DNA from: Dongia mobilis
Lineage (GTDB): Bacteria; Pseudomonadota; Alphaproteobacteria; Dongiales; Dongiaceae
Assembly (NCBI RefSeq): GCF_945906275.1
Contig: NZ_CAMDRA010000013.1
Coordinates: 1-39,490, forward strand
Length of the DNA stretch: 39,490 bases
Direction: 5' to 3'
Part shown: one piece after another, positions 1 to 35,785 of the stretch
Position numbering within the stretch: position 1 is the first letter of the stretch
Layout: the number at the start of each line of letters is the position of its first letter
Program-made: the position numbers and the translations under genes
The notes under the pieces: generated by a model
Told to the model about the DNA's origin: nothing
Database searches by the model: none
What the model saw: only the letters and a program-made list of their open reading frames with translations

Positions 1-597
1 CGTCACATGGGCGGGGAGGCCCACGGTCAGTTCCGGATCGTCGATGACGATCGAGGGCATCATCTTCGGGTGGAAGATGATCTTCTTGGTATGCGTGCTC
101 TCATCGGTGATGACGGAGGCGCGGCCCACTTCCGAACCGGTGCCCGAGGTGGTCGGCACGGCGATGATCGGCGCGATGCCGGCGGGGTTGGCGCGGGTCC
201 ACCAATCGCCGATATCCTCGAAATCCCACATCGGGCGTGTCTGGCCGGTCATGAAGGCGATGGTCTTGGCGGCATCGAGGGCCGAGCCGCCACCGAACGC
301 GATGACGCCATCATGCTCGCCGTCGCGATAGACCTTGAGCCCGTCCTCGACATTCTTTGACACCGGGTTGCCCTGGATCTCGGAGAAGAGGCCGGTGGGA
401 ATCCCGGCTGCTTCGTTGCGGGCGATCGCGTCCTTGATCATGGGGAGGCCGGCCAGGCCCGGATCGGTCACGAGCAGCGGGCGCTTCAGGCCCAAGGCCT
501 TGCAATGGTCGGGCAATTCCTTGATGCGGCCGCAGCCGAACTTGACGGTGGTGGGATAGTTCCAATTGCCCCTGAGGGCGGCGGCGTCCTGGCTCAT
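1..597 (-). CDS. Iron-containing alcohol dehydrogenase, N-terminal part (cut by window edge)
   Basis: The frame is open from an ATG at 597 down to base 1, giving 199 residues with no stop, so the C-terminal half lies outside the window. It starts MSQDAAALRGNWNYPTTVKF, and carries the GGGSALDAAK nucleotide-binding loop and the PTTSGTGSEV motif typical of group III Fe-dependent alcohol dehydrogenases. The metal-binding Asp/His residues would lie in the missing part. An AAGGA lies about 9 bases before the ATG. Family members reduce or oxidise small alcohols and aldehydes with NAD(P); the substrate cannot be told. A TAGAAT on the minus strand near 643-648 could be a -10 box, but no clear -35 goes with it. 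The family call is firm. Confidence 0.9.
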   Translation of the reverse strand, partial: MSQDAAALRGNWNYPTTVKFGCGRIKELPDHCKALGLKRPLLVTDPGLAGLPMIKDAIARNEAAGIPTGLFSEIQGNPVSKNVEDGLKVYRDGEHDGVIAFGGGSALDAAKTIAFMTGQTRPMWDFEDIGDWWTRANPAGIAPIIAVPTTSGTGSEVGRASVITDESTHTKKIIFHPKMMPSIVIDDPELTVGLPAHVT

Positions 598-8247: not shown

Positions 8248-8662
8248 GATCGCTTCCCATTCTTGCGTTAAGGCAGGGCCGGCACCTCTTGAAGCGGGCG
8301 CCTTAGCCAATGCAGCATCAAACCCATCCTGCCTTCGCGGTTGCAGCACCGTCAAGGGCTGGACGATAGAAAAGGTCGCCCATTTGGTCAAATCGGTATT
8401 GATATGGCTAACAGATAGAATAAAACGATAATTATATTACTATTTCGAACGATGCGGCGCAAAACGAACCCGAAAGGAAATCCCGGGCTTTCGACTGGAG
8501 CGCGGCTTTGATGGCAATAATCCCGCGCCCGTGCTGGAAACCGCCGCAATCCCCGAAGACTCTGCCGGTGCCAGCTGCGGTGTTTCGTCGCCCGGGCGGT
8601 TTTGCTCTTTTCTTGATTACAAAATTGATTGAACATTCATTCAATATTGAGGAGAGAATGCA
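8248..8662. other. Divergent intergenic region between ccr and the MttB-type gene
   Basis: No convincing gene lies in these 415 bases. An AT-rich stretch around 8385-8450 contrasts with the surrounding GC-rich DNA and is the most likely site of the ccr promoter, though I see no clean -35/-10 pair. A CGCCCGGGCG palindrome followed by T-rich sequence lies near 8589-8612, and an operator-like repeat is at 8628-8645. Confidence 0.5.
8628..8645. promoter_or_regulatory. Inverted repeat ATTGAA-N6-TTCAAT before the MttB-type gene
   Basis: Six-base arms flank CATTCA, ending 17 bases before the ATG and just upstream of the ribosome site GGAGAG. The core TTGAA-N6-TTCAA is identical in sequence and spacing to the repeat at 4598-4619. 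Embedded TGAACATTCA also resembles the half-sites of the palindrome at 4551-4568. Confidence 0.5.
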
Positions 8663-14652: not shown

Positions 14653-14677
14653 ATCGCTCGATGCTTGGGCTTCGGCT

Positions 14678-14734
14678 CGGGCTCCGTGGTGATTTGTGCC
14701 GGATTGCGGCCACGTTAAATCAAGCGCTAAAAGG
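14678..14734 (+). ncRNA. SAM-II riboswitch
   Basis: The leader contains the conserved SAM-II pseudoknot sequence: CCGTGGTGATTTGTGCCGG, then TTGCGGCCACGTTAAATCAA and GCTAAAAGG. TGCCGG/GCGGCCAC and the purine-rich 3' strand match the remembered consensus closely. SAM-II binds S-adenosylmethionine and turns off methionine and SAM biosynthesis genes, mostly in Alphaproteobacteria. The downstream gene is metZ, the expected target. Confidence 0.93.
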
Positions 14735-14762
14735 TCCAGGACAGCGCCCCAGGGCGCCAGAA

Positions 14763-14789: not shown

Positions 14790-14841
14790 ATTGCCCGCGG
14801 GCCAGCGATGGTCGTGCAGGCCAGTCCAGGACGAGGCGATC

Positions 14842-17358: not shown

Positions 17359-17393
17359 GCGCCGCACAATAATAAGTTCGGGTGGGAGTGACC

Positions 17394-19397
17394 ATGAGTG
17401 CGGCGCCGAAGAACGAGTCGAAATCGAAAAAGGATCAGGCCTGGCTGTTCCGGACCTATTCGGGCCATAGCTCGGCCAAGGCGTCCAACGAGCTTTACCG
17501 GACGAACCTCAAGCGCGGGCAGACGGGCCTCAGCGTCGCTTTCGACCTGCCGACCCAGACCGGCTACGATTCCGACCATGTGCTGGCCAAGGGCGAGGTC
17601 GGCAAGGTGGGTGTGCCGATCAGCCATCTGGGCGACATGGTGGCGTTGTTCGACGGGCTGCCGCTCGCCGATATGAACACCTCGATGACCATCAACGCGA
17701 CGGCGCCCTGGCTGCTGGCGCTCTATATCGCCGCGGCCGAGAAACAGGGCGCAAGCCGTGCCGCCCTGCAGGGGACGGTGCAGAACGACATCATCAAGGA
17801 GTATCTTTCGCGCGGGACCTATATCTTCCCACCGGAACCCTCGCTGCGGCTGATCACCGACGTGATCAGCTTCACCTATCGCGAGGTGCCGAAATGGAAC
17901 CCCACCAATGTCTGCTCCTATCATCTGCAGGAAGCTGGGGCGACACCGGTGCAGGAACTGGCTTATGCGCTGGCGACGGCGGTGGCCGTCCTCGATCATG
18001 TGAAGGCAAGCGGGCAGGTGCCGGCGGCTGATTTTCCGCAGGTGGTGGGTCGCATCAGCTTCTTCGTCAATGCCGGCCTCCGGTTCATCACCGAGATCTG
18101 CAAGATGCGGGCCTTCACGGAATTGTGGGACGAGATCTGCCGCGATCGCTATGGCGTGGAAGATGCCAAGCTGCGGCGCTTCCGCTACGGCGTGCAGGTG
18201 AACAGCCTCGGCCTCACCGAGCAGCAGCCGGAGAATAATGTCTATCGCATATTGCTCGAGATGCTGGCGGTGACGCTCTCCAAGAATGCGCGCGCCCGCG
18301 CCGTGCAATTGCCGGCCTGGAACGAGGCGCTTGGCCTGCCGCGCCCGTGGGATCAGCAATGGTCGCTGCGGCTGCAGCAGATCGTGGCCTATGAAACGGA
18401 CCTTCTGGAGTTCGGCGATATCTTCGACGGCTCGGTCGAGATCACGCGCAAGGTCGACGCGCTGAAGGCCGAGGCGCTGGAGGAACTGGCGCGCATCGAC
18501 GCCATGGGCGGGGCGGTGGCAGCGGTTGAATCCAGCTATATGAAGCAGCGGCTCGTGGAATCGAATGCGCGGCGCCTATCGGCCATCGAGCGCGGCGATC
18601 AGACCGTGGTTGGCGTCAACAAATATACCGAGAGCGCGCCGTCACCCCTGCTCGCCGGTGGCGATGGTGGGTTCCTCGCCATCGACGACAAGGCGGAGGC
18701 GGAGCAGGTCTCCTCGCTCAAGGCCTGGCGTGCCGCGCGTGACAATGCGGCCGCGACCAAGGCGCTGGCCGCACTGGAGGCCGATGCGCGATCCGGCCGC
18801 AACATCATGGAAGCCTCGATCGGTTGCGCCCATGCTGGCTGCACCACCGGCGAATGGGGCGAGACGCTGCGCCGCGTGTTCGGCGAGTTCCGGGCACCGA
18901 CCGGTGTGGCGCGGGTAACCGTGGACCAGGGCAGCACGGCCATCGAGCAGGTACGAGCCAAGGTCGATGCCGCGAGCAAGCGATTGGGCCGGCGGATCAA
19001 GATCCTGGTCGGCAAGCCCGGCCTCGACGGTCATTCCAACGGCGCCGAGCAGATCGCGGTGCGGGCGCGGGATGCCGGGATGGAAGTGGTCTATGAGGGT
19101 ATCCGCCTCACCCCGGCACAGATCGTCAATGCGGCGCTGGAGGAAAGTGTCCATGTGGTGGGGCTCTCGATCCTGTCCGGTTCGCATATCGCCCTGGTGG
19201 GCGAGGTGATGGAGCGCATGCGGGCGCTGGGTCTGGCGGACGTACCGGTCGTGGTGGGCGGCATCATCCCGCCGGAGGATGCAAAAAGGCTGCTGGAGTT
19301 CGGCGTGGCGCGGGTCTATACGCCCAAGGATTACGATCTCAACGCCATCATGGCGGGGATCGTCTCCCTTTTGGACCAGCAATCTCAGGCGGCATGA
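17394..19397 (+). CDS. ecm: Ethylmalonyl-CoA mutase (MeaA-like), coenzyme B12-dependent
   Basis: A 667-residue mutase of the methylmalonyl-CoA mutase family. The barrel shows FRTYSGHSSAKASNELYRTN, LSVAFDLPTQTGYDSDH and NTSMTINATAPWLLALYIAA; the C-terminal B12 domain shows VGKPGLDGHSNGAEQIAVRA with the DxHxxG cobalt-ligand motif near residue 545. The length and the presence of ccr and mcd in the window favour Ecm, which converts (2R)-ethylmalonyl-CoA to (2S)-methylsuccinyl-CoA, over methylmalonyl-CoA mutase, whose alpha chain is longer (about 710-720) and has different motifs. ATG 17394 has GGGAG about six bases upstream. It overlaps bluB by four bases. Confidence 0.92.
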   Translation: MSAAPKNESKSKKDQAWLFRTYSGHSSAKASNELYRTNLKRGQTGLSVAFDLPTQTGYDSDHVLAKGEVGKVGVPISHLGDMVALFDGLPLADMNTSMTINATAPWLLALYIAAAEKQGASRAALQGTVQNDIIKEYLSRGTYIFPPEPSLRLITDVISFTYREVPKWNPTNVCSYHLQEAGATPVQELAYALATAVAVLDHVKASGQVPAADFPQVVGRISFFVNAGLRFITEICKMRAFTELWDEICRDRYGVEDAKLRRFRYGVQVNSLGLTEQQPENNVYRILLEMLAVTLSKNARARAVQLPAWNEALGLPRPWDQQWSLRLQQIVAYETDLLEFGDIFDGSVEITRKVDALKAEALEELARIDAMGGAVAAVESSYMKQRLVESNARRLSAIERGDQTVVGVNKYTESAPSPLLAGGDGGFLAIDDKAEAEQVSSLKAWRAARDNAAATKALAALEADARSGRNIMEASIGCAHAGCTTGEWGETLRRVFGEFRAPTGVARVTVDQGSTAIEQVRAKVDAASKRLGRRIKILVGKPGLDGHSNGAEQIAVRARDAGMEVVYEGIRLTPAQIVNAALEESVHVVGLSILSGSHIALVGEVMERMRALGLADVPVVVGGIIPPEDAKRLLEFGVARVYTPKDYDLNAIMAGIVSLLDQQSQAA

Positions 19398-22652: not shown

Positions 22653-24083
22653 TTACCGCCAGTTCCGGCTGCGTCCGACAGCGTTGTGGAATTTCATGCG
22701 GTGCGCGTCGGCGATTTTGTTCCGTGGCGCAAGGTGCGCCCTGGGAGCGGGCGACGGCGGCAATGTGTCCAGCGTCGCGAGGCCAGCGCCGATGAGCGCC
22801 AATTGCGCGGTGCCGAGGCCGGTGAGTTCGGTGCTGGCGGGGATCACGATGTCGCGGTCGAGCACGTCGGCCGCGAAGCCGGCGAAGTAGCCATTGTTGG
22901 CAAGGCCACCATCGATCGAGATACGGTTGCCGACCGGTGCCAGGCGCGCCATGGCGCGCAGGACTTCGTCAGCCCGGAGAGCAATTCCTTCAAGCAAGGC
23001 CTGCATCATGTCTGCCTTGCTGGTGTCCAGGCCGAGGCCGAGCCACAGGCCGGCGGCCGATCGATCCCAATAGGGGCAGCCCAGGCCACTCAAGGCCGGC
23101 ACAAAGACGAGATTGCGCGAGAGGGCGCTGGGCGCGCTGAAGGCATCGATCTCGGCATAGTCGACGAACAGACCAAGGCTGCTGGCCCAATTGACGGCGG
23201 AGGCAGCATTGTAGACGCCGCCCTCCAGCGCATAGGTCGGGGCCGCGGTGCCCAGCCGCCAGGCAATGGTCGGCAGCAGGCCGCTCGCCACATCGCGCAA
23301 CGGCTGCGCACCGACGAGGCAGAGAGCGAAAGCGCCGGTGCCGAAGGTGATCTTGGCGTCGCCGGCAGCACGACAACCATGACCGAACAGGGCCGCCTGC
23401 TGATCAACAACATTGGCGGTAACCGGTGTCTGGCCGATGCTGCCGAAATTGTCGGCGGTGGCGCGGATCTCGGGCAGGCAGTCGATGGGCACGCCGAAGA
23501 GGTCGCACAGCACGGGGTCCCATTGCAGCGTTTCCAGGTTCATCAGGCTGGTGCGCGAGGCCGTGGTCACGTCGGTGGCGAAGGTTCCTACGAGGCGGTC
23601 CAGAAAGAAACTGTCGCTGGTGCCGAAACGGAGGCGGCCCTGTTTGTGCAGCTGCCTGGCGTCTTCGACATGATCAAGAAACCAGCGCAATTTGCTGGCC
23701 GAGAAATAGGGATCGAGCGGCAGGCCGGCGCGGGCCAGCGTCGTCTCCTCGTGGCCGGCCTGTTTCAGCCGGTCGATGACGTCATTGGTGCGCGAATCCT
23801 GCCAGACGATCGCGTTGTAGATCGGCCGTCTGGTGCGCGCATCCCAGGCGATGACGGTCTCGCCCTGGTTGGCGATGCCGATGGCCTGCGCGTTGGCGGC
23901 AGATCCGAAGCAGGAGTCGAGATGGCCGATCAGTTCTTCGGGATCATGTTCGACCCAACCTGGCGCTGGCAGGATCTGGCGATGCTCAAAGCCATCCAGC
24001 GTCTGGAAGCGGCCATCCGCGTAGAGGCGGTGAAGCTTGGTGCCGGTCGTACCCTGGTCGATGGACAGAACGAAATCGGACAT
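22653..24083 (-). CDS. FGGY-family kinase, glycerol kinase-like
   Basis: A 476-residue kinase with the phosphate-binding SIDQGTTGTK, PAPGWVEHDPEEL, IYNAIVWQDSRT, DPYFSASK, the catalytic Asp of VVDQQAALFGHG, GTGAFAL and GLGCPYWDRSAAG, all matching glycerol kinase. The residue equal to Arg83 of E. coli GlpK, which contacts glycerol, is Gly here (ANQGETVIAW instead of TNQRETTIVW), while the next Glu is kept. It may therefore phosphorylate glycerol weakly or use another polyol. It starts three bases after the stop of the FAD oxidoreductase gene and is the third gene of the set. It lacks the last roughly 25 residues of the E. coli enzyme. Confidence 0.85.
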   Translation of the reverse strand: MSDFVLSIDQGTTGTKLHRLYADGRFQTLDGFEHRQILPAPGWVEHDPEELIGHLDSCFGSAANAQAIGIANQGETVIAWDARTRRPIYNAIVWQDSRTNDVIDRLKQAGHEETTLARAGLPLDPYFSASKLRWFLDHVEDARQLHKQGRLRFGTSDSFFLDRLVGTFATDVTTASRTSLMNLETLQWDPVLCDLFGVPIDCLPEIRATADNFGSIGQTPVTANVVDQQAALFGHGCRAAGDAKITFGTGAFALCLVGAQPLRDVASGLLPTIAWRLGTAAPTYALEGGVYNAASAVNWASSLGLFVDYAEIDAFSAPSALSRNLVFVPALSGLGCPYWDRSAAGLWLGLGLDTSKADMMQALLEGIALRADEVLRAMARLAPVGNRISIDGGLANNGYFAGFAADVLDRDIVIPASTELTGLGTAQLALIGAGLATLDTLPPSPAPRAHLAPRNKIADAHRMKFHNAVGRSRNWR

Positions 24084-24086
24084 GGA

Positions 24087-25304
24087 TCACTTGCGCGGTT
24101 GCAGATCGACGGTGAGGTGATGGATGCCGGTGAGGTCGATGGCGGGGACGCGCCAGGCAATGCGCCGCTCGGGCAGCACATTGATCGGGCGCGACCAGAT
24201 CTCGCGGCCATCGGCCAGGACCCGTAGCGTGCCCCTGGTGGCGACGCGCGCACGCGCCTTGAACAGCAAGGGGTCGTAGGGGCCGCGTCCGGTGAGGCGC
24301 TGGGGATAGACATAGCTCAGGGCGCCACCAGCCTCGATGCGGATGGGCGTGGCAGCTGCTGCGAGCTTGTCCTGCAAGGCTGCATGAATGGCGTGGGCTG
24401 CGGATATCCCTTCGCGATAGCATTGACCGGCGGTCTCAATGCCGCGCAGCAGATTGCCGCTGGCGAAATAGCTCGCATCCGTGCAGCGGTAGAGCTGGTC
24501 GATGACCGGGCCGCGCGTGCCGGGATCGAGTTCAAGATGGCTCTGCGTGAGCAGGGCGCTCTCGGGGCGGAACTGGCCGGTGAAGACGATGCCGTCACAT
24601 TCGAGAGTGCGCGTGACGCCACGCCGCTGGAAGCTGACGCCTTCGACCCGGTCCTGGCCCAGAATCCGCAGGTCGCTGCAATCGGTCATGACGGGTACGC
24701 CGAAGCCGATGCGCGCCACCCAATCGCCCGGACGCCAGGCCGAGATGCGCGACCGTTCCTCGATCATCGCCACGGCCTTGACGCCGACATGGCCGAGGGT
24801 AAGCAGGCTGGAGAAGGCGACCAGTTCAGATCCGATGATGACCGGCCGCTGGAAGGGCGCCTTGCCCTGCAGATAGGCAAATTGCTGCAGGGCGCCCGTG
24901 GTCATGACACCCCAAGGGCGCGTCCCGGAAACAAGGCGCGCACTGCGCGGTGTTTCGCGCGCACCCATGGCAAGCAGGACCTTTTGTGCCTGCAGCGTCT
25001 CCAACCCGTTGGGGCCGGCCAGTTGCAGGCGCCCATTTGGCTCAAGCTTCAGCACGGTATGGCCGAGGCGCAGGTCGAGATCGCTTACCCGGTCGACCAG
25101 GCGCTTCGCGAAATCGGGGCCCGTCATCAGCTTGCCGAATTGGAGCAGTCCATAGCCGGTATGGCCGCAATGGCGTGGTATGCCGCCACCTTCGGTTTCC
25201 CGGTCGATGACGGTGATGTCCTGCACGCCCAGCCGTTTCAGTTCCGCAGCCGCGGAAAGCCCAGCGGGACCGGCGCCAAGAATGATGACGTCATGCGTCT
25301 TCAT
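24087..25304 (-). CDS. FAD-dependent pyridine nucleotide-disulfide-type oxidoreductase
   Basis: A 405-residue flavoprotein beginning HDVIILGAGPAGLSAAAELK (FAD/ADP fold), with a second nucleotide-binding-like region RPVIIGSELVAFSSLLTLG and the FASGNLLRGIETAG closing motif. Proteins of this group sit beside GlpA-like flavoproteins in heteromeric dehydrogenases of glycerol-3-phosphate or amino-acid type; the pairing, not the sequence alone, suggests this. The start overlaps the upstream GlpA-like stop as ATGA. The final 80 residues (GRGPYDPLLFKARARVATRG onward) form an additional small beta-rich domain. It probably forms a complex with its upstream neighbour, transferring electrons from substrate via FAD. 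Confidence 0.82.
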   Translation of the reverse strand: MKTHDVIILGAGPAGLSAAAELKRLGVQDITVIDRETEGGGIPRHCGHTGYGLLQFGKLMTGPDFAKRLVDRVSDLDLRLGHTVLKLEPNGRLQLAGPNGLETLQAQKVLLAMGARETPRSARLVSGTRPWGVMTTGALQQFAYLQGKAPFQRPVIIGSELVAFSSLLTLGHVGVKAVAMIEERSRISAWRPGDWVARIGFGVPVMTDCSDLRILGQDRVEGVSFQRRGVTRTLECDGIVFTGQFRPESALLTQSHLELDPGTRGPVIDQLYRCTDASYFASGNLLRGIETAGQCYREGISAAHAIHAALQDKLAAAATPIRIEAGGALSYVYPQRLTGRGPYDPLLFKARARVATRGTLRVLADGREIWSRPINVLPERRIAWRVPAIDLTGIHHLTVDLQPRK

Positions 25305-26656
25305 GGCGTGATCTTGCCTTCGGCGATGGCCATCACCCGAGCGCTGCAATAGAAGCCCTGACAGCGGCCCATCATGGCGCGGGTGCGGCGTTTCAAGCCA
25401 CCGATATCGCCAGCGGGCAAGGCACCGTCGAGGGCATTCTCGATCTCGGTCCTGGTGACCCATTCGCAGTGGCAGACGATCTCGCCGCTCAACGGCGCCT
25501 GATAGGTCCGTGGTTGCTCCTCGCAGAGATTGGGAACCGGCGTCCAGATGGGCGCGCTGTTGGCGAGACGACCGAAACTTGCGCCATAGAGGCCCGCCAC
25601 ATGCTGGGCAATGCCGAGTGCCGCGGTAAGACCGGTCGAGCGAATGCCGGCCACTGTGATCCAGCGGCGGTCAGGCTGAGCGGTGATCTGATAATCCTTG
25701 AACTGGGTGGCGGGACGGAGGCCGGCATAGACCGCGGTCACGTCGACATTGGCAAGTCCCGGCAACATCTCGATGCCGCGCGCCATCAATTGCTTGAGCG
25801 CGGCCTGATCGACCTCAGCGTGAATCCGGTCTTCCTGATCCTCCGCCGTGGGGCCAACCAGCACATTGCCGAAGGCGGTGCGGCAGATGACGATGCCCTT
25901 GGTGCGTTCGGTCGGCACCGGCAGCACGATCGCCTTGAGAAGCCGTGCCGCAGGCTTGTCGAAGACAACGAACTGGCCCTTGCGCGGCGTGATCCTGAAA
26001 GGGGCCGGGCGATTGATCGCCTCGATGATATCGCCCTGATTGCCGGCGGCATTGATGACGAGATCGGCGGTTACCTCGCCCTGATTGGTGTCGAGATGCC
26101 AGATGCCGTCGAAGCGACCGCTCTCGACCCGGCAATCGCGCAGCACGATGCCGCCATGGGCGAGGCCCTGATGGACATAGGCGAGCGGTGCCGACCAGGG
26201 GTCGATGATATGCTCTCCCGGCACATGCACCCCGCCCATGGCCTTGGGCGAGAGCAGCGGCTCCTGGCGGCGGAGTGCTTCGCGGTCGATGTGCACGACG
26301 TCGGTGACATTGTTGTCATGGGCCTTGGCGAGAATACCGTCGAGCTTGCCGAGCTCTTCCTCGTTCCAGGCGACAACCAGGGCTCCGGATTTGACCAAGG
26401 GCAGGTTGAGCTGCTCGCGCAGGCTCATATACTCGCGGTAGCCCTGCTGCATGCAGGACAGCTCAAGTGAGCCGTGGGGCGCATCGAAGCCGGTGTGCAG
26501 GAGGGCGCTGTTGGCCTTGGAAGCTCCGGAGAGGATATCGCGGCCAGCTTCCAGCAGCACAGGCTTGAGGCCACCCATGGCAAGCCGCCGGAAGATGGCG
26601 CAGCCCACCACTCCGCCGCCAATGACCACAACCTGTGTATGATTGGTGTCCGCCAA
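25301..26656 (-). CDS. GlpA-like FAD-dependent oxidoreductase with C-terminal BFD iron-sulfur domain
   Basis: About 451 residues. A DAO fold starts QVVVIGGGVVGCAIFRRLAM and continues with the SGASKANSALLHTGFDAPHG region. The last 65 residues hold a bacterioferritin-associated ferredoxin-type [2Fe-2S] domain: VCHCEWVTR and RCQGFYC give four cysteines. This architecture is that of GlpA-type subunits, which oxidise glycerol-3-phosphate or a related 2-hydroxy acid or amine. I chose a TTG at 26656 (MADTNHTQ reading) with AGGGGA nine bases upstream; a GTG at 26692 is the alternative. It is the first gene of the flavoprotein-flavoprotein-kinase set. Specific substrate is not certain. Confidence 0.82.
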   Translation of the reverse strand: MADTNHTQVVVIGGGVVGCAIFRRLAMGGLKPVLLEAGRDILSGASKANSALLHTGFDAPHGSLELSCMQQGYREYMSLREQLNLPLVKSGALVVAWNEEELGKLDGILAKAHDNNVTDVVHIDREALRRQEPLLSPKAMGGVHVPGEHIIDPWSAPLAYVHQGLAHGGIVLRDCRVESGRFDGIWHLDTNQGEVTADLVINAAGNQGDIIEAINRPAPFRITPRKGQFVVFDKPAARLLKAIVLPVPTERTKGIVICRTAFGNVLVGPTAEDQEDRIHAEVDQAALKQLMARGIEMLPGLANVDVTAVYAGLRPATQFKDYQITAQPDRRWITVAGIRSTGLTAALGIAQHVAGLYGASFGRLANSAPIWTPVPNLCEEQPRTYQAPLSGEIVCHCEWVTRTEIENALDGALPAGDIGGLKRRTRAMMGRCQGFYCSARVMAIAEGKITP

Positions 26657-26855: not shown

Positions 26856-28247
26856 TCAGATCTGCGTGCGGAAGTGGAAGGATTTCGGCCGGGTCAGCAT
26901 TTCATAGCCGACGCGGGACAAGGTTGCGCCGCGACCGGAATCCTTGACGCCAACCCAGGCCAGGGCCGGATCGAGATAATCGCAGCGGTTCATGAAGACA
27001 GTGCCGGTCTCGAGCTCGTTGCCGATCTTGCGTGCGGCAATCTCATCCGAGGTCCACAGGGCCGCGGTGAGGCCGTATTTGCTGTCGTTCATCAGCTTCA
27101 CGGCCTCGTCATCGCCCTTCACCTTCATGATGCCGATGACCGGACCGAAGCTTTCTTCCGACATCACCGACATGGAATGATCGACATTCACCAGTACCTG
27201 CGGCGCCACATAGGGGGTGCCGGGTTTGTCGGCCGGGAACAGCTTGGTGTCGATGAGCGCCTTGGCGCCGTGCTTCACGGCATCGGCCACTTGGCCGCGC
27301 ACGAACTCGGCAGCCGAGGTGCGGACCATCGGCCCGAGATTGGTTGCTGTGTCGAGCGGGTTGCCAAGCTTGTACTTCTTGGTGAGATCCACAAAGCCGT
27401 CGACAAACTTGTCGTAAAGGCTCTCATGCACATAGATGCGCTCGATGGCGCAGCAGCATTGGCCGGAATTGAACATGGCGCCATCGACCAGGTTCTCGAT
27501 TGCGTGGGCGAGGTTGGCGTCGGCGCGGACATAGGCTGGGTCCTTGCCCCCAAGCTCCAAACCCATCCCCATGAACTTGCCGAGCGCTGCCTGCTGCACG
27601 GCATGGCCGCCGGCAACCGAGCCGGTGAAGTTCACGTAGGCCACTTCGGGTGCCGCGATCACTTTGGCCGTGGCGTCATGGGTGAGGACGAGATGCTGGA
27701 ACAGGCCCTTGGGCAAGCCGGCCGCATCGAAGGCCTGCTGGAAATCCTCGGCGCAAAGCGGTGTCTGGGCGGAGTGTTTCAGGACCACGGAATTACCGGC
27801 CATCAGCGCCGGGACCACGCCGTTGACCGAGGTGAGATAAGGATAGTTCCACGGCGCCACGATGAAGACGACGCCGAGCGGCTCGCGGTGCAGCACCCGG
27901 GTGAAGCCGGGTTTGTCGGTGAAGCTGACATCGGCCAGCGCTTCCGGGGCGAGATTGATCATGAAGCGGGCACGTTCTTCGAAGCCGCGCATTTCGAACG
28001 GGCTCTGCGAAATCGGCCGGCCCATCTGACGGGTGATTTCCTCCGCGTGCTTGTCCTTGCCCTTGAGAAATTCGTCGACGGCCTTGTTCAGGATCCGGGC
28101 ACGCTCGGCGATCGAGGTTCGGCGCCATTCGACCTGCGCCTTGGCGGCATCCTTGAGGACCGCGGCGATTTCAGCCGGGCTGTTGTAGGGGCGCTCGACA
28201 TAGACGGAATTGTCGATCGGCGTGATGGTCTTCTGAATGGCGGCCAT
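26856..28247 (-). CDS. Aldehyde dehydrogenase (NAD(P)-dependent)
   Basis: A 463-residue aldehyde dehydrogenase with VAPWNYPYLTSVNGVVPALM (about 130-150), LELGGKDPAYV bearing the general-base Glu, and FNSGQCCCAIERI with the catalytic Cys. The ATG at 28247 has AGG eight bases upstream; a longer start at 28271 would include the terminator tail. It lies behind the glutamine-synthetase-like gene and an APC permease, an order like the puu-type polyamine route, where an aldehyde dehydrogenase oxidises gamma-glutamyl-aminobutyraldehyde. Whether this enzyme takes that aldehyde or another (for example succinate semialdehyde) is not readable from the sequence. Confidence 0.9.
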   Translation of the reverse strand: MAAIQKTITPIDNSVYVERPYNSPAEIAAVLKDAAKAQVEWRRTSIAERARILNKAVDEFLKGKDKHAEEITRQMGRPISQSPFEMRGFEERARFMINLAPEALADVSFTDKPGFTRVLHREPLGVVFIVAPWNYPYLTSVNGVVPALMAGNSVVLKHSAQTPLCAEDFQQAFDAAGLPKGLFQHLVLTHDATAKVIAAPEVAYVNFTGSVAGGHAVQQAALGKFMGMGLELGGKDPAYVRADANLAHAIENLVDGAMFNSGQCCCAIERIYVHESLYDKFVDGFVDLTKKYKLGNPLDTATNLGPMVRTSAAEFVRGQVADAVKHGAKALIDTKLFPADKPGTPYVAPQVLVNVDHSMSVMSEESFGPVIGIMKVKGDDEAVKLMNDSKYGLTAALWTSDEIAARKIGNELETGTVFMNRCDYLDPALAWVGVKDSGRGATLSRVGYEMLTRPKSFHFRTQI

Positions 28248-28274
28248 GTGTAACCTCAGGGGTTTGGTCAAATG

Positions 28275-28312
28275 AGAAAAGCACCCGCGCTCCCCTCAGG
28301 GAAGGCGGGTGC
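28275..28312 (-). terminator. Intrinsic terminator between glutamine-synthetase-like and aldehyde dehydrogenase genes
   Basis: On the minus strand GCACCCGC (28312-28305) pairs with GCGGGTGC (28288-28281), the inner CTTCCC/GGGGAG also pairs, and TTTTCTC follows. It sits 12 bases after the GS-like stop, so the aldehyde dehydrogenase would be made from readthrough or from a separate start. Confidence 0.8.
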
Positions 28313-28323
28313 TTCTTGCAGGA

Positions 28324-29697
28324 TCAGATGATTTCGAAGTAGCGCGACAATTCCCAATCGGTGATTGCCTTGCGGAACTCGCGCTCCTCATGCTCGCGGG
28401 TGCCGGCGTGATGCTCGACGAAGGCATCGCCGAACAATTCGCGCGCAGCCTTCGACTTGCGCAGGCGCTGAGCGGCGTCCCACAGCGTCGTCGGCAGGTC
28501 GAGCTTGGCCGGATGCTTCATCTCATAGGAATTGCCGACAATGGGTGCCATCGGCTCGATCTTGTGTTCGATACCGTAGAGGCCGGAGCCGATCGAAGCC
28601 GCCAGCGCCAGGTAGGGGTTACAATCGGCGGCGGCGATGCGGTACTCGACGCGCTGCGATTTCTCGGAGCCGGGAATGACGCGAAGCGCGCAGGTGCGGT
28701 TCTCGACACCCCAGGTGGCATTGGTGGGGGCCCAGAAGCCGGGGATGAGGCGGGAGTATGAATTGACGGTGGGCGAGACCATGCCGAGCACTTCCGGCAT
28801 CAGAGTCTGCTGGCCGCCGATGAACCAGCGCATCTTGTCGGAAATGTTGTGCGGTTTCTTCGGGTCGTGGAAGACGGCCTTGCCGTCCTTGCCCTTCAGC
28901 GAAATATGGATGTGGCCCGACTGGCCGGGATAGGAGTTCGACCATTTCGCCATGAAGGTCGCCATGAGGCCGCGGCGCTGGGCCAGCACTTTCATGAAGG
29001 TCTTGAAGAGGGCACCGCGATCGGCGGCTTCCAGAGCCGAGGTGACGCCGAGAGCTGCTTCGAGCACACCCGGGCCGGTCTCCGTGTGCAGGCCTTCGAT
29101 CGGCATGCGCATCTTTTCGCACATGTCGAGAATGTCCTGGTAGAGCTCGGACCAGACGGAGTTGCGGATGACCGAATAGCCGAACCAGCCGGGAGTCATC
29201 GGCGTCAGGTTCTTGTAGTTCTTCTCGCGCACACTTTCCGGCGTCTCGTCGAACATGAAGAATTCGAATTCCAGCGCCGAGTAGACATCGAAGCCCATCT
29301 TGGCTGCCTTGGCGAGCACGCGGCGCAGCGTGCCGCGCGCGCAGATTTCTTCCGCCTTGTTGACGAACTCCGAGAGGAACAGGAGGCCGTTATCCTCCAT
29401 CGGCAGGTCGCGGCAGGTCTCCGGGATGATGCGCGCCCAGGCGTCGGGATAGGCGGTGTGCCAGCCGGTGTAGTTGAGGCCGTCGATCAACTGGTCCTGA
29501 TTGTCCCAGCCCAGCACCACATCGCAGAAACCAAAGCCGCCTTCGAGGGCGGAGAAGAACTTCGCCTTCGACATATACTTGCCGCGCAGGATGGCATCGC
29601 CGTCGAACACGCCGACCTTGATGTGCGTAAGGCCGCGCTCTTCGACGATCTTCTTGGCCTGGGCGATGGTTTTGACTTGTTCCGGTTTCAACGGCAT
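28324..29697 (-). CDS. Glutamine synthetase-family gamma-glutamyl ligase (PuuA/FluG-like)
   Basis: A 457-residue protein of the glutamine synthetase superfamily. Catalytic-domain motifs are SALEFEFFMFDE (near 138-150), TGPGVLEAALG, AKWSNSYPGQSGHIHISL, the PGFWAPTNATWGVENRTCAL run and RVEYRIAAADCNPYLALAAS. The divergence from ordinary GlnA and the aldehyde dehydrogenase and APC neighbours favour a gamma-glutamyl-amine ligase: ATP-dependent coupling of glutamate to an amine. A tandem glycine riboswitch lies in its leader, which is not the usual control for this family and suggests that the amine or its product is tied to glycine. AGGGGG precedes the ATG at 29697 by about eight bases. A terminator follows. 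Confidence 0.88.
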   Translation of the reverse strand: MPLKPEQVKTIAQAKKIVEERGLTHIKVGVFDGDAILRGKYMSKAKFFSALEGGFGFCDVVLGWDNQDQLIDGLNYTGWHTAYPDAWARIIPETCRDLPMEDNGLLFLSEFVNKAEEICARGTLRRVLAKAAKMGFDVYSALEFEFFMFDETPESVREKNYKNLTPMTPGWFGYSVIRNSVWSELYQDILDMCEKMRMPIEGLHTETGPGVLEAALGVTSALEAADRGALFKTFMKVLAQRRGLMATFMAKWSNSYPGQSGHIHISLKGKDGKAVFHDPKKPHNISDKMRWFIGGQQTLMPEVLGMVSPTVNSYSRLIPGFWAPTNATWGVENRTCALRVIPGSEKSQRVEYRIAAADCNPYLALAASIGSGLYGIEHKIEPMAPIVGNSYEMKHPAKLDLPTTLWDAAQRLRKSKAARELFGDAFVEHHAGTREHEEREFRKAITDWELSRYFEII

Positions 29698-29828
29698 TTG
29701 TGGTTCCCCCTGTTGGATCCATGAATTGGAATTTAGGCCGCAGATAGACTTGCGGCAACGATGTCTTGGAAGAAGTAAATGTGGCTCCCCGACGTCGGGT
29801 TGGTGCGGCCGGCGTGGATAGCGCCGGT

Positions 29829-30036
29829 CAGCCCCCCTCTGTCCTTGAGACTTGAGAGATTCACCGTGGCGCGATGGCCCGGTTTACTCCGTCGGTGAGG
29901 CGACGACGTCCGTCGCCCGCTTTCCAGAGATGACTTTTCCTACCTGGTCCTTTTGCCTGAGAGTTTCCGGGGGAGGTTGCTCCTTCGGCGCCGAACCGGC
30001 CGCGCAAAGAGATGCGGCCGTGCCAGTCTCTCCCGA
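29829..30036 (-). ncRNA. Tandem glycine riboswitch
   Basis: On the minus strand two glycine aptamers lie in series. The first (about 30036-29930) reads GGGAGAGACTGG, then GCGCCGAAGGAGCAA, CCCGGAAACTCTCAGGCAAA and AGGACC. The second (about 29928-29830) reads CTCTGGAAAG, ACCGACGGAGTAAACC, GGTGAATCTCTCAAGTCTCA and AGGACAGAGGGG. These match the remembered glycine riboswitch consensus of GNAAGGAGCAA and CTCTCAGG...AAGGACAGAG. Glycine binding usually turns the downstream gene on. After aptamer 2 come two GC-rich hairpins (CCGGCG/CGCCGG and CCCGACGTCGGG) without a T-run, so control may act on translation or through Rho. Confidence 0.92.
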
Positions 30037-30058
30037 GGTCGGAGGATTGTGCGCGCGG

Positions 30059-30087
30059 AGTGTGTGATTGGCCCGGAGAAAGGTCAA
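30059..30087 (-). promoter_or_regulatory. Candidate promoter of the riboswitch and GS-like gene
   Basis: On the minus strand TTGACC (30087-30082) and CACACT (30064-30059) are 17 bases apart. It lies between the terminator of the APC gene and the first aptamer, which is where a separate promoter is needed. The -10 is weak. Confidence 0.45.
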
Positions 30088-30092
30088 GTCAC

Positions 30093-30127
30093 AAAAAGAA
30101 AAAGGGAGGCAGTTTGCACTGCCTCCC
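30093..30127 (-). terminator. Intrinsic terminator of the APC permease gene
   Basis: A perfect 10-base stem GGGAGGCAGT / ACTGCCTCCC (30127-30118 and 30113-30104) closed by a four-base loop is followed on the minus strand by TTTTTCTTTTTG. It cleanly separates the permease transcript from the glycine riboswitch. Confidence 0.93.
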
Positions 30128-30154
30128 CAGTCGATTTGTTGATTTGTTGTGGGA

Positions 30155-31705
30155 TCAGCCAGCGCCACCCAGCGCCGCTTCTTCCCGTGCGATTTCAGCC
30201 TGGCGCGCTTTGACATCCGCTTCGGTGAGCGGCGGTCCAGGGAACCGGCTCTTTTCAAAGGCGAACCAGATGACGATCAGCAGGACAACGGCACCCGCAA
30301 GGAAGTAACCGACCAACTGGTAGGGCGGCTGGAAGCCGACGAAGGCCAGCACCGCGCCGCCCAGAACTGCGAGCAATGCGATCGGCTTCGACCAGACGCC
30401 GAGGTTGAACGGGCCCTTCTTCGTCCAGCTCTTGCCTTCGGCGAGGAGGCCCGCGCCGATCGGCATGATGTAGGAGACGTAGAGGAACACCGCGCAACCG
30501 GACGCCAGGATGATGTAGGCGTTGGCGTCGTTGCCGGCAACCAGACCGAGGACGAAGCACAACGCCGCGCCGACCCAGATCGCCGCACCGGGGGTGCGGT
30601 ATTTCGGGCTGACCTGACGCAGGAACTTCGAGCAACCCGGGATGCCGCCGTCACGCGCAAACGCGTAGATCATGCGCGAGAGCGAGGTCATGCCGGCGAG
30701 GGCACAGAGGTAGTTGGCGAGCACGATGCCGATTGCCAGAAAGTCTTTGACGATGTCCGGCATCAGGCTGGAGTCGAGCACGTAGAAGAACACCGACCAA
30801 CCCTTGGAGGCGCCTTCGGTCATGTCCGGCATGGCGAGCAGGACGGAGACCACCAGCAGCCAGCCGAACACGGCAGACCAGAACACGGCGGTAAGCATGC
30901 CCTTCGGCACCGCACGCTGCGCATCACGGGTTTCTTCCGAGGTATGGGCCGAAGCGTCGAACCCGGTGATGGTGTAGCAGACATGCAGCAGGCCGAGGAT
31001 GAAGGCGAACAGCAGGCTGCCCGTCGCCGGCCAAGTTTCGGCACCGGCCGGACCGGTGTTGTTGGTGAAAGTCACCAGACGCGAGAAGTCCAGTTCAACC
31101 GGCGAACCGAACAGCAGGCCGGCGATGAGGACGAACGAGACCACCATGATCAGGTAGCCCGAGAAGTCCGTCAGGATCGTCGTCGCCTTGATGCCAACAT
31201 AGTTCAGCACCGCTTGCGTGAAGGTGATGATTGCCACGGCGATGATGAGATGCGTGCCGGTGAAATCTTCCGGGTTCATGCCGAGCACGCCGACGAGGAC
31301 GAGATCCTTCAGCAGCAGATAGACACCGTAATTGACCGACGAAACGACGAACAGCAGGCCAAGCAGATTGAGCCAAGCCGTGGCCCAGCCCCAACCCTTG
31401 CCACCGAGGATCGAACCCCAATGGTAGAGACCGCCGGCCGTCGGATAGGCCGAAGCGATCTGACCCATGGCGGCTGCCACGAGCAGAGCGAACACCGAAC
31501 CGACGATCCAGCCGATGGCGATCGACCCGCCGCCGGCCGCACCGAAGGCGACCGTGTAGGCGCCGATACCGCCGGCCAGGATGCAGATGATCGAGAACGA
31601 GATCGCGAAATTCTGGAACCCGCCCATGCGGCGGGAAAGTTCCTGGGAATAACCCATGCTGTGGAGGACTTTTACGTCCTCATCATGATGACTTGGTACT
31701 GCCAT
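30155..31705 (-). CDS. APC-superfamily amino acid/amine permease
   Basis: A 516-residue transporter with about twelve hydrophobic segments. It begins with a short soluble leader ending MGYSQELSRRMGGFQNFAIS, the first helix FSIICILAGGIGAYTVAFG carries the unwound glycine-rich binding segment, and TITGFDASAHTSEETRDAQR marks the amino acid/choline transporter branch of the APC family known for GABA, choline and amino acids. ATG 31705 is preceded by GAGGGGG at eight bases. It has its own terminator, so it is regulated separately from the GS-like gene but probably imports the amine that the ligase acts on (inference from order). Substrate unknown. Confidence 0.87.
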   Translation of the reverse strand: MAVPSHHDEDVKVLHSMGYSQELSRRMGGFQNFAISFSIICILAGGIGAYTVAFGAAGGGSIAIGWIVGSVFALLVAAAMGQIASAYPTAGGLYHWGSILGGKGWGWATAWLNLLGLLFVVSSVNYGVYLLLKDLVLVGVLGMNPEDFTGTHLIIAVAIITFTQAVLNYVGIKATTILTDFSGYLIMVVSFVLIAGLLFGSPVELDFSRLVTFTNNTGPAGAETWPATGSLLFAFILGLLHVCYTITGFDASAHTSEETRDAQRAVPKGMLTAVFWSAVFGWLLVVSVLLAMPDMTEGASKGWSVFFYVLDSSLMPDIVKDFLAIGIVLANYLCALAGMTSLSRMIYAFARDGGIPGCSKFLRQVSPKYRTPGAAIWVGAALCFVLGLVAGNDANAYIILASGCAVFLYVSYIMPIGAGLLAEGKSWTKKGPFNLGVWSKPIALLAVLGGAVLAFVGFQPPYQLVGYFLAGAVVLLIVIWFAFEKSRFPGPPLTEADVKARQAEIAREEAALGGAG

Positions 31706-32052: not shown

Positions 32053-32958
32053 TCAGGTTTTTTGCCCGGCGAAATGGGCGCGGCACAGTTCGGCGAAGGC
32101 CAGCGCCCGTCTGGTCGGGCGGAGCTTCTTCAGCCGTGCCAAGCCCAGCCGCGTCGGGCGCAATTTCTCCTTGATCGGCGGGAAGACGAGCTGCCGGCCA
32201 TCCAGCGACCAGTCGCTCAAGGGGCGCGAATGCATGATCGAGAAGGAATCGGAATTGGCGACCAGGCCGCGCACCATCTCGAAGCTCGGTGTCTCGTAGG
32301 CGACGCGCGGCTGCAGGCCGAGGCCGTAGATGATCGAGAGGAAGTAGTCGCGGCTGTGCGGCAAGGCGAGGAGCACCATCGGATAGGCGATGAGGTCAGC
32401 GATGGCGACGACGCTCTTTTTCGCCAGCGGATGGTCTTTGGCGAGGATGCAATGCAGCGGTACCTCGGTCAGTGCATCGAACTCGATATCGTCATCGAGG
32501 CCGAGGTCATAGGTGAGTGCAAATTCGAACTCGCCGGCGCGCAACCCGTCGAGCACACCTTGCACGTGATGCTCGTGAAGCTTCACGCTGATCTCGGGAT
32601 GGTCGGCGGCGAGCGCGCCGATGAGGCGTGGCAGGACGAGGGGGGCCACGGTCTGGAAACAACCGATATGAAGCTCGCCCGCCACATCCTGGCCGAGGCC
32701 CATGGCGCCGAGGCGCACGTCGTCGGCGTGATCCAGCAGGCTCTTGGCATCGGTCAGCAATTCGCGCCCGGCGGCGGTGAGGCTTAAACCCTGGGCATGG
32801 TGGCGCACGAAGAGATCGACGCCAAAGCGGGATTCCAGCTCGGCAATCGCTGCTGAAACAGAGGGTTGCGAGATATTCACCCGCTGGGCGGCCAGCGTCA
32901 CGCTGCCGGTTTCGGCGGTCGCCACGAAATAGCGCAGCTGCTTCAGGGTGAATGGCAT
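32053..32958 (-). CDS. LysR-family transcriptional regulator
   Basis: A 301-residue regulator. The N-terminal winged helix-turn-helix is typical (LKQLRYFVATAETGSVTLAA, then ISQPSVSAAIAELESRFGVD, LFVR); the effector domain follows from about residue 93 (GELHIGCFQTVAPLVLPRLI). It diverges from the HpaB-type operon by 124 bases, the classical arrangement in which the LysR protein activates its divergent neighbour in response to a pathway compound. The end LKKLRPTRRALAFAELCRAH is basic. It could also influence the APC permease gene, which lies next on the same strand. The effector is unknown. Confidence 0.93.
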   Translation of the reverse strand: MPFTLKQLRYFVATAETGSVTLAAQRVNISQPSVSAAIAELESRFGVDLFVRHHAQGLSLTAAGRELLTDAKSLLDHADDVRLGAMGLGQDVAGELHIGCFQTVAPLVLPRLIGALAADHPEISVKLHEHHVQGVLDGLRAGEFEFALTYDLGLDDDIEFDALTEVPLHCILAKDHPLAKKSVVAIADLIAYPMVLLALPHSRDYFLSIIYGLGLQPRVAYETPSFEMVRGLVANSDSFSIMHSRPLSDWSLDGRQLVFPPIKEKLRPTRLGLARLKKLRPTRRALAFAELCRAHFAGQKT

Positions 32959-33082
32959 TAATAAATCCGATCCAATTCGACAGATAATAATATTTTCTCA
33001 TTGCTGCGCCGCCTGAGCAAGATGGCTGCAGCGGAGTCGTGAAAGATTCCGGCCAAAGAGGCGTGGAGCAGGGGGTAATTGC
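32959..33082. promoter_or_regulatory. Divergent control region between LysR gene and monooxygenase operon
   Basis: 124 bases. The LysR-proximal part is AT-rich (ATAATAATATTTTCTCATTG), and should hold both promoters and the LysR-binding site (T-N11-A type), but I cannot single out one site. AGGGGG lies eight bases before the monooxygenase ATG. Confidence 0.5.
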
Positions 33083-34549
33083 ATGCTGCGGACTGGTGAA
33101 CAGTATCGCGACAGTCTCAAGGACGGTCGCAATGTCTGGATCGACGGTGAGAAGGTGAAGGATGTGGCGACGCATCCGGCCTTCAAGCCGATCGTCGACA
33201 TCCGCGCCCGGATCTATGACATGGCGCATGAGGCCAAGACCAAGGGGGTCATGGCCTATCGCGACGCGACATCGGGCGAGGAAAACTGCATCGGCTACAA
33301 GCTGCCACATACCCAGGAAGACTGGCACGCCAAGCGCCGCGCCATCGACACGGTCATGCATGACATCAAGGGCTATGCCGTCCGCGTTGGCGACGAGACG
33401 GTTGGCGAGATGTGGTCGCTCTATGACGGGCGCGATGTGCTGAACGAGGTCGACCCGCAATTCTCCAAGAACATCGAGCATCATATCCAGCATGTGCTGC
33501 AATCGGATATCTTCCACGTCTCGGCCAACACCGATCCGAAGGGCGACCGATCGAAGCGGCCGCAGGACCAGGATCCCGACATGCTGCTGCATCTGGTCAG
33601 GGAGACCGATGCCGGTATCATCGTGCGCGGCGCCAAATACGAAACCGCGGCAGCCTATGCCAACCAGGCCTTTGTGAAGCCCACCATCGCCAATTGGGGC
33701 GATGACAAGCTCAGCGATCATGCGCTGGGATTCATTTGTGACATGGGTTCACCGGGGTTGAAGCATATCTGCCGATCCGGCTTCACCGGCCGGGCACCGG
33801 CGGACGATTACCCGCTCTCAAACCGCGCCGACGAGGTCGACACGCTGCTGATTTTCGACGACGTCTTTGTGCCTTGGGAGAACGTGCTGTTTCATCGCCA
33901 CACCCGGGCCGCTGCCTATATTCGCGGCACGCTGCATCGCTACAGTGCCTATCCCTTTACCATGCGTCTTCTCTATATTGCGGACATGATGCTGGGGACG
34001 GCGGCGTTCAACGCTAAGCAGACCGGCCTCGACGCCCAGCCGGCGGTGCGCGAAAAGCTCGCTTTGCTGATCCAGTATCGCGAGATGATCAACGCCCATC
34101 TTACCGCGGCGATCACCATGGCCCTGCCCAGCCCGGGCGGCCTACTGATGCCGAACCCGTCGCTGCTCTATACTGGGCGGCATGCGGCGATCAACCAGCT
34201 GCCGGCGATGATGCAACTGGCGCGCGAATTGTGCGGTGGGCAGATCTGCGTCACTCCGAGCAAAGCGACCTTCGACAATCCGGACATCAAGCCCTGGATG
34301 GACAAGTACTATACAGTCAACGAATTCTGGCAGGCGGATGATCGCCGCAAGCTGCTGGCCTTTGCGCGCGATCTCCTCAATTCCGACCGTGCGGGGCATA
34401 TGGTGACGTTCGAGCTGTTCGCCCAATCACCGCCCTTTGCACATCTCAATCATATCTATATGAATTTCGACATGTCGAACGCACTTGATTATGTGAAAGA
34501 CTGCGCCGGCCTATCCGACCGCGTCATGGACCAGTGGAAGAAGAAGTAA
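33083..34549 (+). CDS. HpaB-type flavin-dependent monooxygenase
   Basis: A 488-residue protein of the 4-hydroxyphenylacetate 3-hydroxylase family (acyl-CoA dehydrogenase-like fold). Family segments are MLRTGEQYRDSLKDGRNVWI at the N-terminus, the substrate/FAD region around IVRGAKYETAAAYANQAFV, VDTLLIFDDVFVPWENVLFH, and LARELCGGQICVTPS in the C-terminal domain. Such enzymes hydroxylate aromatic or N-heterocyclic substrates using reduced FAD from a separate reductase; no reductase gene is in the window. Its neighbours (RidA-like, DUF1028, LysR, DMT transporter) do not match the hpa aromatic cluster, so 4-hydroxyphenylacetate itself is unlikely. It begins a three-gene operon with short gaps (4 and 14 bases). 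Confidence 0.88.
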   Translation: MLRTGEQYRDSLKDGRNVWIDGEKVKDVATHPAFKPIVDIRARIYDMAHEAKTKGVMAYRDATSGEENCIGYKLPHTQEDWHAKRRAIDTVMHDIKGYAVRVGDETVGEMWSLYDGRDVLNEVDPQFSKNIEHHIQHVLQSDIFHVSANTDPKGDRSKRPQDQDPDMLLHLVRETDAGIIVRGAKYETAAAYANQAFVKPTIANWGDDKLSDHALGFICDMGSPGLKHICRSGFTGRAPADDYPLSNRADEVDTLLIFDDVFVPWENVLFHRHTRAAAYIRGTLHRYSAYPFTMRLLYIADMMLGTAAFNAKQTGLDAQPAVREKLALLIQYREMINAHLTAAITMALPSPGGLLMPNPSLLYTGRHAAINQLPAMMQLARELCGGQICVTPSKATFDNPDIKPWMDKYYTVNEFWQADDRRKLLAFARDLLNSDRAGHMVTFELFAQSPPFAHLNHIYMNFDMSNALDYVKDCAGLSDRVMDQWKKK

Positions 34550-34553
34550 GACA

Positions 34554-35081
34554 ATGACTTATAGCCACGTACGTTTGCGCAAGTTCAACACCAAGAAGAC
34601 CTATCCGGAACAGACCCTCGACAACGATCTCTCGATGTCGGTCCGGGCCGGCAACACCATCTTCCTGCGCGGCCAGGTCGGCCAGGCCCTTGATGGCTCG
34701 ATGGTCGGCGTCGGGGATGCGGCGGCCCAGTCCGAGCAGGCGATGCGCAACGTCAAGCAGTTGCTGGAAGAGCAAGGCGGGAAACTCGCTGATATCTGCA
34801 AGATCGTCGTCTATATCACCGACCCCCGCTACCGCGAGACCGTCTACAAGGTGGTCGGCAAATGGCTGAAGGGGGTCTATCCGGTCTCGACCGGCCTCGT
34901 GGTCCAGGGGCTGGCGCGGCCGGAATGGGTCATGGAAATCGACGCCTATGCGGTGATCCCGGAAAGTCGTATGAAGAAACTGGAAGAGCCGCCCGCTTCC
35001 TTGCAGTGGAAGGACACCGCCGACAAGGCGGACCGCGCTAAAAAAGCCACGAAGAAAAGGGCGGCCCGCAAAACCAGATAG
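34554..35081 (+). CDS. RidA/YjgF-family protein lacking the usual arginine
   Basis: A 175-residue protein: a RidA domain at about 1-140 with GNTIFLRGQVG, KQLLEEQGGKLADICKIVVY, ITDPRYRE, and WVMEIDAYAVIP, then a Lys/Arg-rich tail (DRAKKATKKRAARKTR). Archetypal RidA has a PAR motif whose Arg binds the carboxylate of 2-imino acids; here the equal position reads YPVSTGLVV, so Arg is absent. It therefore belongs to a different Rid subgroup and may hydrolyse another imine, enamine or carbamate. It begins four bases after the monooxygenase, so they are co-transcribed and probably act in sequence. The tail may bind nucleic acid or membrane, or be mere extension. Confidence 0.85.
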   Translation: MTYSHVRLRKFNTKKTYPEQTLDNDLSMSVRAGNTIFLRGQVGQALDGSMVGVGDAAAQSEQAMRNVKQLLEEQGGKLADICKIVVYITDPRYRETVYKVVGKWLKGVYPVSTGLVVQGLARPEWVMEIDAYAVIPESRMKKLEEPPASLQWKDTADKADRAKKATKKRAARKTR

Positions 35082-35095
35082 GGATCGGGCCCCAG

Positions 35096-35785
35096 ATGAC
35101 CTTCTCGCTTGTCGGCCGCTGCGCCGAAACCGGTATGTTCGGCGTCGCGATCACGACCTCGTCGATCGCGGTCGCCTCGCGCTGTCCCTGGGCGCGCGCC
35201 GGGGTGGGGGCGGTCGCCACTCAGAATGTGACGGATCCGCGCCTTGGCAATCAGGGCCTAGATCTGATGGCCAGGGGCATGAGTGCCCCTGAGGCCATGA
35301 ATGCGCTGATGAAAGCAGCACCCCATCCGGAGCATCGTCAGGTGACGATGATCGATGCCAAGGGGCACACGGCGCACTGGTCGGGGGCGAAGACGCTTGG
35401 CACCAACAATGTGGCGCCGGGCGAGGATTGCATCGCCGCCGGCAATCTGCTGCAGAACCCGGATGTGCCCGCCGCGATGGCGCGGGCCTTCGCGCAATCG
35501 AAGGGGCGGCATCTCGCCGATCGGCTGCTGCTGGGGCTCGAAGCCGGAATCGTCGCCGGCGGCGAGATGGGACCGGTGCATTCGGCTGGGCTCCTGGTGG
35601 TGCATGAGCAAAGCTGGCCTCTGGTCGACCTCCGCATCGATTGGAGTGACGATAGTCCGATCCGGCCGCTGAAGCGCTTGTGGGAGGATTTCCAACCGCA
35701 GATGAACGCCTATATCACCCGCGCGCTCGATCCTAACGCGGCACCTTCTTATGGCGTGCCTGGCGATATGCCGGAAGAAAAATAG
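35096..35785 (+). CDS. DUF1028 family protein (Ntn-hydrolase-like)
   Basis: A 229-residue protein with the DUF1028 marks TFSLVGRCAETGMFGVAITT, VGAVATQNVTDPRLGNQGLD, and an EAGIVAGGEMGPVHSAGLLV section. DUF1028 proteins are thought to have an Ntn-hydrolase fold and so could cleave an amide, though activity is little studied. It lies 14 bases after the RidA-like gene with GGGATCGGG-type purine sequence in between. The combination oxygenation, imine handling and amide hydrolysis would fit breakdown of a nitrogen compound. The stop is two bases before a convergent transporter gene. Confidence 0.87.
   Translation: MTFSLVGRCAETGMFGVAITTSSIAVASRCPWARAGVGAVATQNVTDPRLGNQGLDLMARGMSAPEAMNALMKAAPHPEHRQVTMIDAKGHTAHWSGAKTLGTNNVAPGEDCIAAGNLLQNPDVPAAMARAFAQSKGRHLADRLLLGLEAGIVAGGEMGPVHSAGLLVVHEQSWPLVDLRIDWSDDSPIRPLKRLWEDFQPQMNAYITRALDPNAAPSYGVPGDMPEEK

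Follow-up and report, generated by a model that had tools for sequence, protein, structure and literature searches.

A canonical tandem glycine riboswitch precedes a gene for a glutamine synthetase (GS)-like ligase in Dongia mobilis, and we consider it probable that the RNA, transcribed from its own promoter, switches on a GS that ligates ethanolamine, with the end product of the pathway as its signal. The window, by which we mean the whole stretch of DNA analyzed (39,490 nucleotides), is the entire contig of a Dongiales genome. The tandem spans 29829-30046 on the minus strand and contains two complete aptamers, as identified with Rfam model RF00504 (cut-off, 32 bits). It lies among the following elements.

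30155..31705, minus strand: APC permease gene, upstream and outside the riboswitch transcript (TIGR00907, 230 bits, below the cut-off), followed by a terminator.
30103..30128, minus strand: intrinsic terminator of the upstream permease (11-bp stem and U-run, z -5.0).
30059..30087, minus strand: promoter-like site TTGACC-17-CACACT (TTGAC, the 17-nt spacing, and nnnnCT are conserved in GS leaders).
29936..30045, minus strand: glycine riboswitch aptamer 1 (RF00504, 51.7 bits, full model, E 7e-10 in a 471-base stretch).
29829..29937, minus strand: second glycine riboswitch aptamer, with the G-run past P1 counted in (RF00504, full model 1-94; 48.7 bits and E 8e-9 in a whole-genome search).
29969..29973, minus strand: P3b C-tract of aptamer 1, which may pair in a P5 pseudoknot (from sequence; in 10 of 10 GS leaders).
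29832..29836, minus strand: G-run following aptamer 2, the other possible partner in the P5 pseudoknot (from sequence; in 10 of 10 GS leaders).
29698..29828, minus strand: region from the tandem to the GS start codon, comprising the expression platform and leader, without a U-run terminator.
28324..29697, minus strand: GS-like gene (457 aa; PF00120, Gln-synt_C, 335 bits), proposed from its neighborhood to encode an ethanolamine gamma-glutamylase.

The original prediction held that both aptamers were complete, and the Rfam run agreed, each exceeding the curated cut-off. Aptamer 2 is absent from the cmscan tables, probably because weaker matches that overlap within a clan are removed there. Judged by its sequence, the RNA is an ordinary, canonical member of the tandem class, and it is predicted to bind glycine. 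Comparison of 10 GS leaders showed that the core of aptamer 1 is nearly invariant and that aptamer 2 is more variable. The aptamer 2 core of the window has one changed base and reads CUCUCAAG; other Dongiales aptamer 2 sequences read CUCUCAGG in 20 of 24 cases and CUUUCAGG in the remaining 4, all of them gcvT leaders. Both the C-tract and the G-run were also present in all 15 gcvT leaders compared. All five leaders that lead directly into GS (window positions 29698-29940, minus strand, and loci L006, L140, L142, and L143) carry a GACGUC palindrome twice, once in the aptamer 2 P2 loop and once about 100 nt further downstream; the two copies might pair, although the sequences are few.

The promoter-like site sits 50 to 53 nt ahead of P1 in GS leaders; it is too weak in a sigma-70 consensus scan, so its support is its conservation. 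No intrinsic terminator was found in the expression platform in a terminator scan of the window's GS leader, and the platform folds no better than shuffled sequences (z -0.6), so a translational or Rho-dependent step would be a guess. When the five direct leaders were folded to a consensus, no pairing was supported by covariation.

The GS-like gene is found in 15 of 17 Dongiales genomes. The tandem lies upstream of it in 10 of these 15, directly in five and with a gene for an AraC-type regulator in between in the other five; it is missing in the remaining 5 carriers. In the direct arrangement the RNA lies 137 to 190 nt from GS; in the window the tandem ends about 130 nt before the ATG. The interposed AraC-type gene is closely followed by GS on the same strand, with a gap of 47 nt in Dongia deserti, and among NCBIfam models it scores best against GbdR (141 bits, short of the cut-off, 480). 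Genomes differ in whether an APC permease or a TRAP binding protein gene lies upstream of the RNA, while downstream there is always GS or AraC-GS. Because the RNA precedes GS whichever transporter lies upstream, it is tied to GS and not to the transporter. Assignment of the riboswitch to the permease was ruled out by the differing upstream transporters and by the intervening terminator, which the original prediction had already placed there. That prediction also took the ligase as the target, and GS is indeed the first gene downstream, in an arrangement conserved in relatives apart from the five AraC-type insertions.

The comparison of GS homologues that had been suggested was extended to the best 80 GS relatives. 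A covariance model built from these aptamers detected no riboswitch at about 70 GS loci outside the Dongiales; among the 91 sources searched, its matches were the 10 Dongiales loci only, which ruled out the riboswitch as a general trait of the GS family. The one other tandem glycine riboswitch of the genome precedes gcvT and gcvP, the usual target. In a tree of tandems, most GS-type RNAs formed one group separate from the gcvT type, while the G012 pair had no clear placement. Among the papers listed by literature searches, no title or abstract opening describes a link of a glycine riboswitch to glutamine synthetase or ethanolamine, and the GS-like target is apparently previously unreported.

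The GS-like protein is not a type I GlnA: it scored 223.6 bits against TIGR00653 (GlnA; cut-off, 429 bits), and the true GlnA (661 bits) is encoded at another locus of the genome. It also fell below the cut-off for gamma-glutamylputrescine synthetase (NF045547, GGputSyn; 173 versus 650 bits). Its relatives, 65 to 97% identical, come from 80 loci in Alpha- and Gammaproteobacteria and others. Beside GS stand an aldehyde dehydrogenase in at least 66 of these loci, an iron alcohol dehydrogenase (FeADH) in at least 61, and a class I GATase of the hydrolase type in at least 32; because many loci are cut by contig ends, such neighbor counts are lower bounds. An ethanolamine-permease-like gene (TIGR00908, 378.7 bits, just under the cut-off of 381.75) occurs in about 17 of the 80 loci and TRAP binding proteins in about 9. 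The TRAP binding protein adjoining GS in D. deserti (L008) matches PDB entry 4uab at 502 bits (E 1e-149; next best, 72), the structure of Csal_0678, crystallized with ethanolamine (PMC12410723). An ethanolamine transporter is found near GS in the relatives L007, L008, L138, L139, L142, L144, L146, and L147; the window has an APC permease, with no assigned ethanolamine transporter and no GATase next to GS. The genome has no GATase hydrolase of the L067 type and carries three PF05013 genes at other places; EutB was not found in it. PDB entry 5dm3, which we take to be the C. salexigens GS and perhaps a neighbor of Csal_0678, is related to the GS of the window only distantly (199 bits), and the ethanolamine ligase that has been assayed may therefore come from a different branch of GS.

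The set of GS-like ligase, FeADH, and aldehyde dehydrogenase is present in relatives' loci, and FeADH also falls within the window, 22 kb away. The GS-aldehyde dehydrogenase-alcohol dehydrogenase gene order has been reported in Phaeobacter as an ethanolamine operon, induced by phosphorylethanolamine (PMC10132767), and the ethanolamine gamma-glutamylation pathway of Streptomyces and C. salexigens ends in glycine and glutamate (PMC6529630, PMC9397018). Together, the conserved dehydrogenases, the GATase-type hydrolase, and the transporters for ethanolamine suggest that the substrate is an amino alcohol and that glycine is what the pathway yields; as glycine is the expected product, a glycine sensor is sensible here, which favors ethanolamine over other amino alcohols. 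On this evidence, the conserved gene company probably represents a gamma-glutamyl ethanolamine pathway with glycine as its product. The genes downstream of GS and the FeADH gene are as follows.

28277..28316, minus strand: strong hairpin with U-run separating GS from the aldehyde dehydrogenase gene, which may act as an attenuator (-31.5 kcal/mol, z -4.4).
26856..28253, minus strand: aldehyde dehydrogenase, proposed gamma-glutamyl-aldehyde dehydrogenase (PF00171, 414 bits; the family seen near GS in at least 66 of 80 loci).
25301..26650, minus strand: FAD-dependent oxidoreductase with BFD domain, GlpA-like (PF01266, PF04324; type 2 glycerol-3-phosphate oxidase, 193 bits, below the cut-off).
24087..25358, minus strand: pyridine-nucleotide-disulfide-type oxidoreductase (PF07992).
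22653..24083, minus strand: glycerol-kinase-like FGGY kinase (GlpK, 427 bits, below the cut-off of 590).
1..597, minus strand: iron alcohol dehydrogenase, truncated where the contig ends; its proposed role is that of a gamma-glutamylethanolamide dehydrogenase (PF00465; 83% identical to the D. deserti copy).

Readthrough from GS into the aldehyde dehydrogenase gene, as originally predicted, is possible, but in the window the strong hairpin with its U-run separates the two genes. A different strong hairpin occupies the same place in L006 and none is present in L143, so riboswitch control of the aldehyde dehydrogenase is only possible.

Several other features of the window were recorded. The GlpA-like, second oxidoreductase, and glycerol-kinase-like genes (22653-26650, minus strand) come after the aldehyde dehydrogenase in most Dongiales carriers, and perhaps the glycerol phosphate and ethanolamine of phospholipid head groups are used jointly. 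In most Dongiales, as well as in L053, the GS locus has as its neighbor a LysR gene divergent from HpaB-like oxygenase, RidA, and DUF1028 genes (32053-35785). A SAM_alpha riboswitch (14676-14750, plus strand; 61.7 bits) has an unremarkable placement, ahead of a gene for O-succinylhomoserine sulfhydrylase (14791-16038). The presence on one contig of genes for crotonyl-CoA carboxylase/reductase (605 bits, above the cut-off), an acyl-CoA dehydrogenase, and a methylmalonyl-CoA-mutase-like protein (5249-8391, minus strand, and 17382-19397, plus strand) suggests the ethylmalonyl-CoA pathway. A trimethylamine methyltransferase-like gene (8663-10162, plus strand; 237 bits, below the cut-off of 525) possibly encodes a methylamine or betaine demethylase.

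We propose that the riboswitch, transcribed from its own promoter, would control the GS-like ligase, which would join glutamate to ethanolamine; oxidation by the alcohol and aldehyde dehydrogenases would then yield gamma-glutamyl-glycine, and a hydrolase would split this into glycine and glutamate, so that the RNA senses the end product. Glycine, bound mainly by aptamer 1, would stabilize the folded tandem through P5, formed by the aptamer 1 C-tract and the G-run after aptamer 2, and the folded tandem would free GS translation or Rho-sensitive elongation. Since glycine would also activate the glycine cleavage operon, the breakdown of ethanolamine and the use of glycine would increase together. 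As to direction, PMC13104608, citing Torgerson et al., characterizes ON switches by conservation of the aptamer 1 pocket and by a P5 pseudoknot that joins a P3b C-tract to a G-run after aptamer 2. A conserved aptamer 1 and both P5 partners were found together in 10 of 10 GS leaders; the nearly invariant aptamer 1 core and P5 tracts shared with the gcvT switch favor ON, and the riboswitch is most likely a glycine ON switch. An OFF switch for the same target and pathway, by which glycine represses GS through feedback, would fit end-product logic, and OFF glycine switches exist, for example at sodium-alanine symporters (PMC13104608); we regard it as unlikely, given that the near invariance of aptamer 1, the variability of aptamer 2, and the P5 partners are ON traits according to that source, and match the gcvT switch of the same genomes. 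It is very unlikely that the tandem is a gcvT-switch copy in decay, with no regulatory effect at the GS locus. Absence from 5 of 15 genomes and the changed aptamer 2 core base in the window would suit such decay, but the aptamer 1 core, promoter, and G-run are retained in 10 of 10 copies despite diverging flanks.

The substrate admits alternatives as well. The GS family is broad, and the protein also matches GGputSyn, below its cut-off, so that another amino alcohol (alaninol, aminopropanol, or serinol) or a polyamine might be ligated, with glycine merely a nitrogen or one-carbon signal. This seems improbable to us, because an ethanolamine permease and an ethanolamine-binding TRAP protein adjoin GS homologues and because, among these amino alcohols, only ethanolamine gives the glycine that the RNA senses. 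The original prediction suggested that glycine-derived amine is disposed of or stored, possibly by gamma-glutamylating glycine or methylglycines, as a glycine-sensing RNA before a gamma-glutamyl ligase might invite; this scheme leaves the conserved alcohol and aldehyde dehydrogenases with no role, and we give it very little credence. The RNA and the gene were thus correctly recognized, but the direction of metabolism was probably misread. We see an even chance that a single duplication in the Dongiales recruited glycine riboswitches to turn on the degradation of ethanolamine by way of the end product, and that half of the carriers have both the AraC-type regulator and the ligase under control of the RNA, which would be a previously undescribed product-induction circuit of RNA plus protein. 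A well-studied riboswitch class would thereby gain an apparently unreported gene target, and its ligand helps to assign a substrate to a widespread proteobacterial GS-like family. Ethanolamine is a fragment of membrane lipids, and the shared glycine signal would connect its phospholipid-derived pool with one-carbon metabolism.

The closest RNA counterpart is the gcvT tandem of the ON type (RF00504), which likewise has two full aptamers, a conserved aptamer 1, and a possible P5 pseudoknot, and of which the same genome carries one before gcvT. Here, however, the tandem precedes a GS-like ligase, and the regulated pathway would yield glycine rather than consume it. The ethanolamine gamma-glutamylation operon of Phaeobacter sp. 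MED193 and C. salexigens shares the GS-aldehyde dehydrogenase-alcohol dehydrogenase order and, as a putative further common element, a hydrolase, and an EtoX-type TRAP protein is found in Dongiales relatives; the Phaeobacter cluster differs in having a gene for an RpiR-type regulator, and the word riboswitch does not appear in PMC10132767. Although the GlnA4 pathway of Streptomyces coelicolor belongs to a distant taxon, is governed by a protein repressor (EpuRI/EtuRI), and uses a short-chain dehydrogenase at the alcohol step, it resembles the arrangement proposed here in its GS-like gamma-glutamylethanolamide synthetase, dehydrogenases, amidohydrolase, and glycine product.
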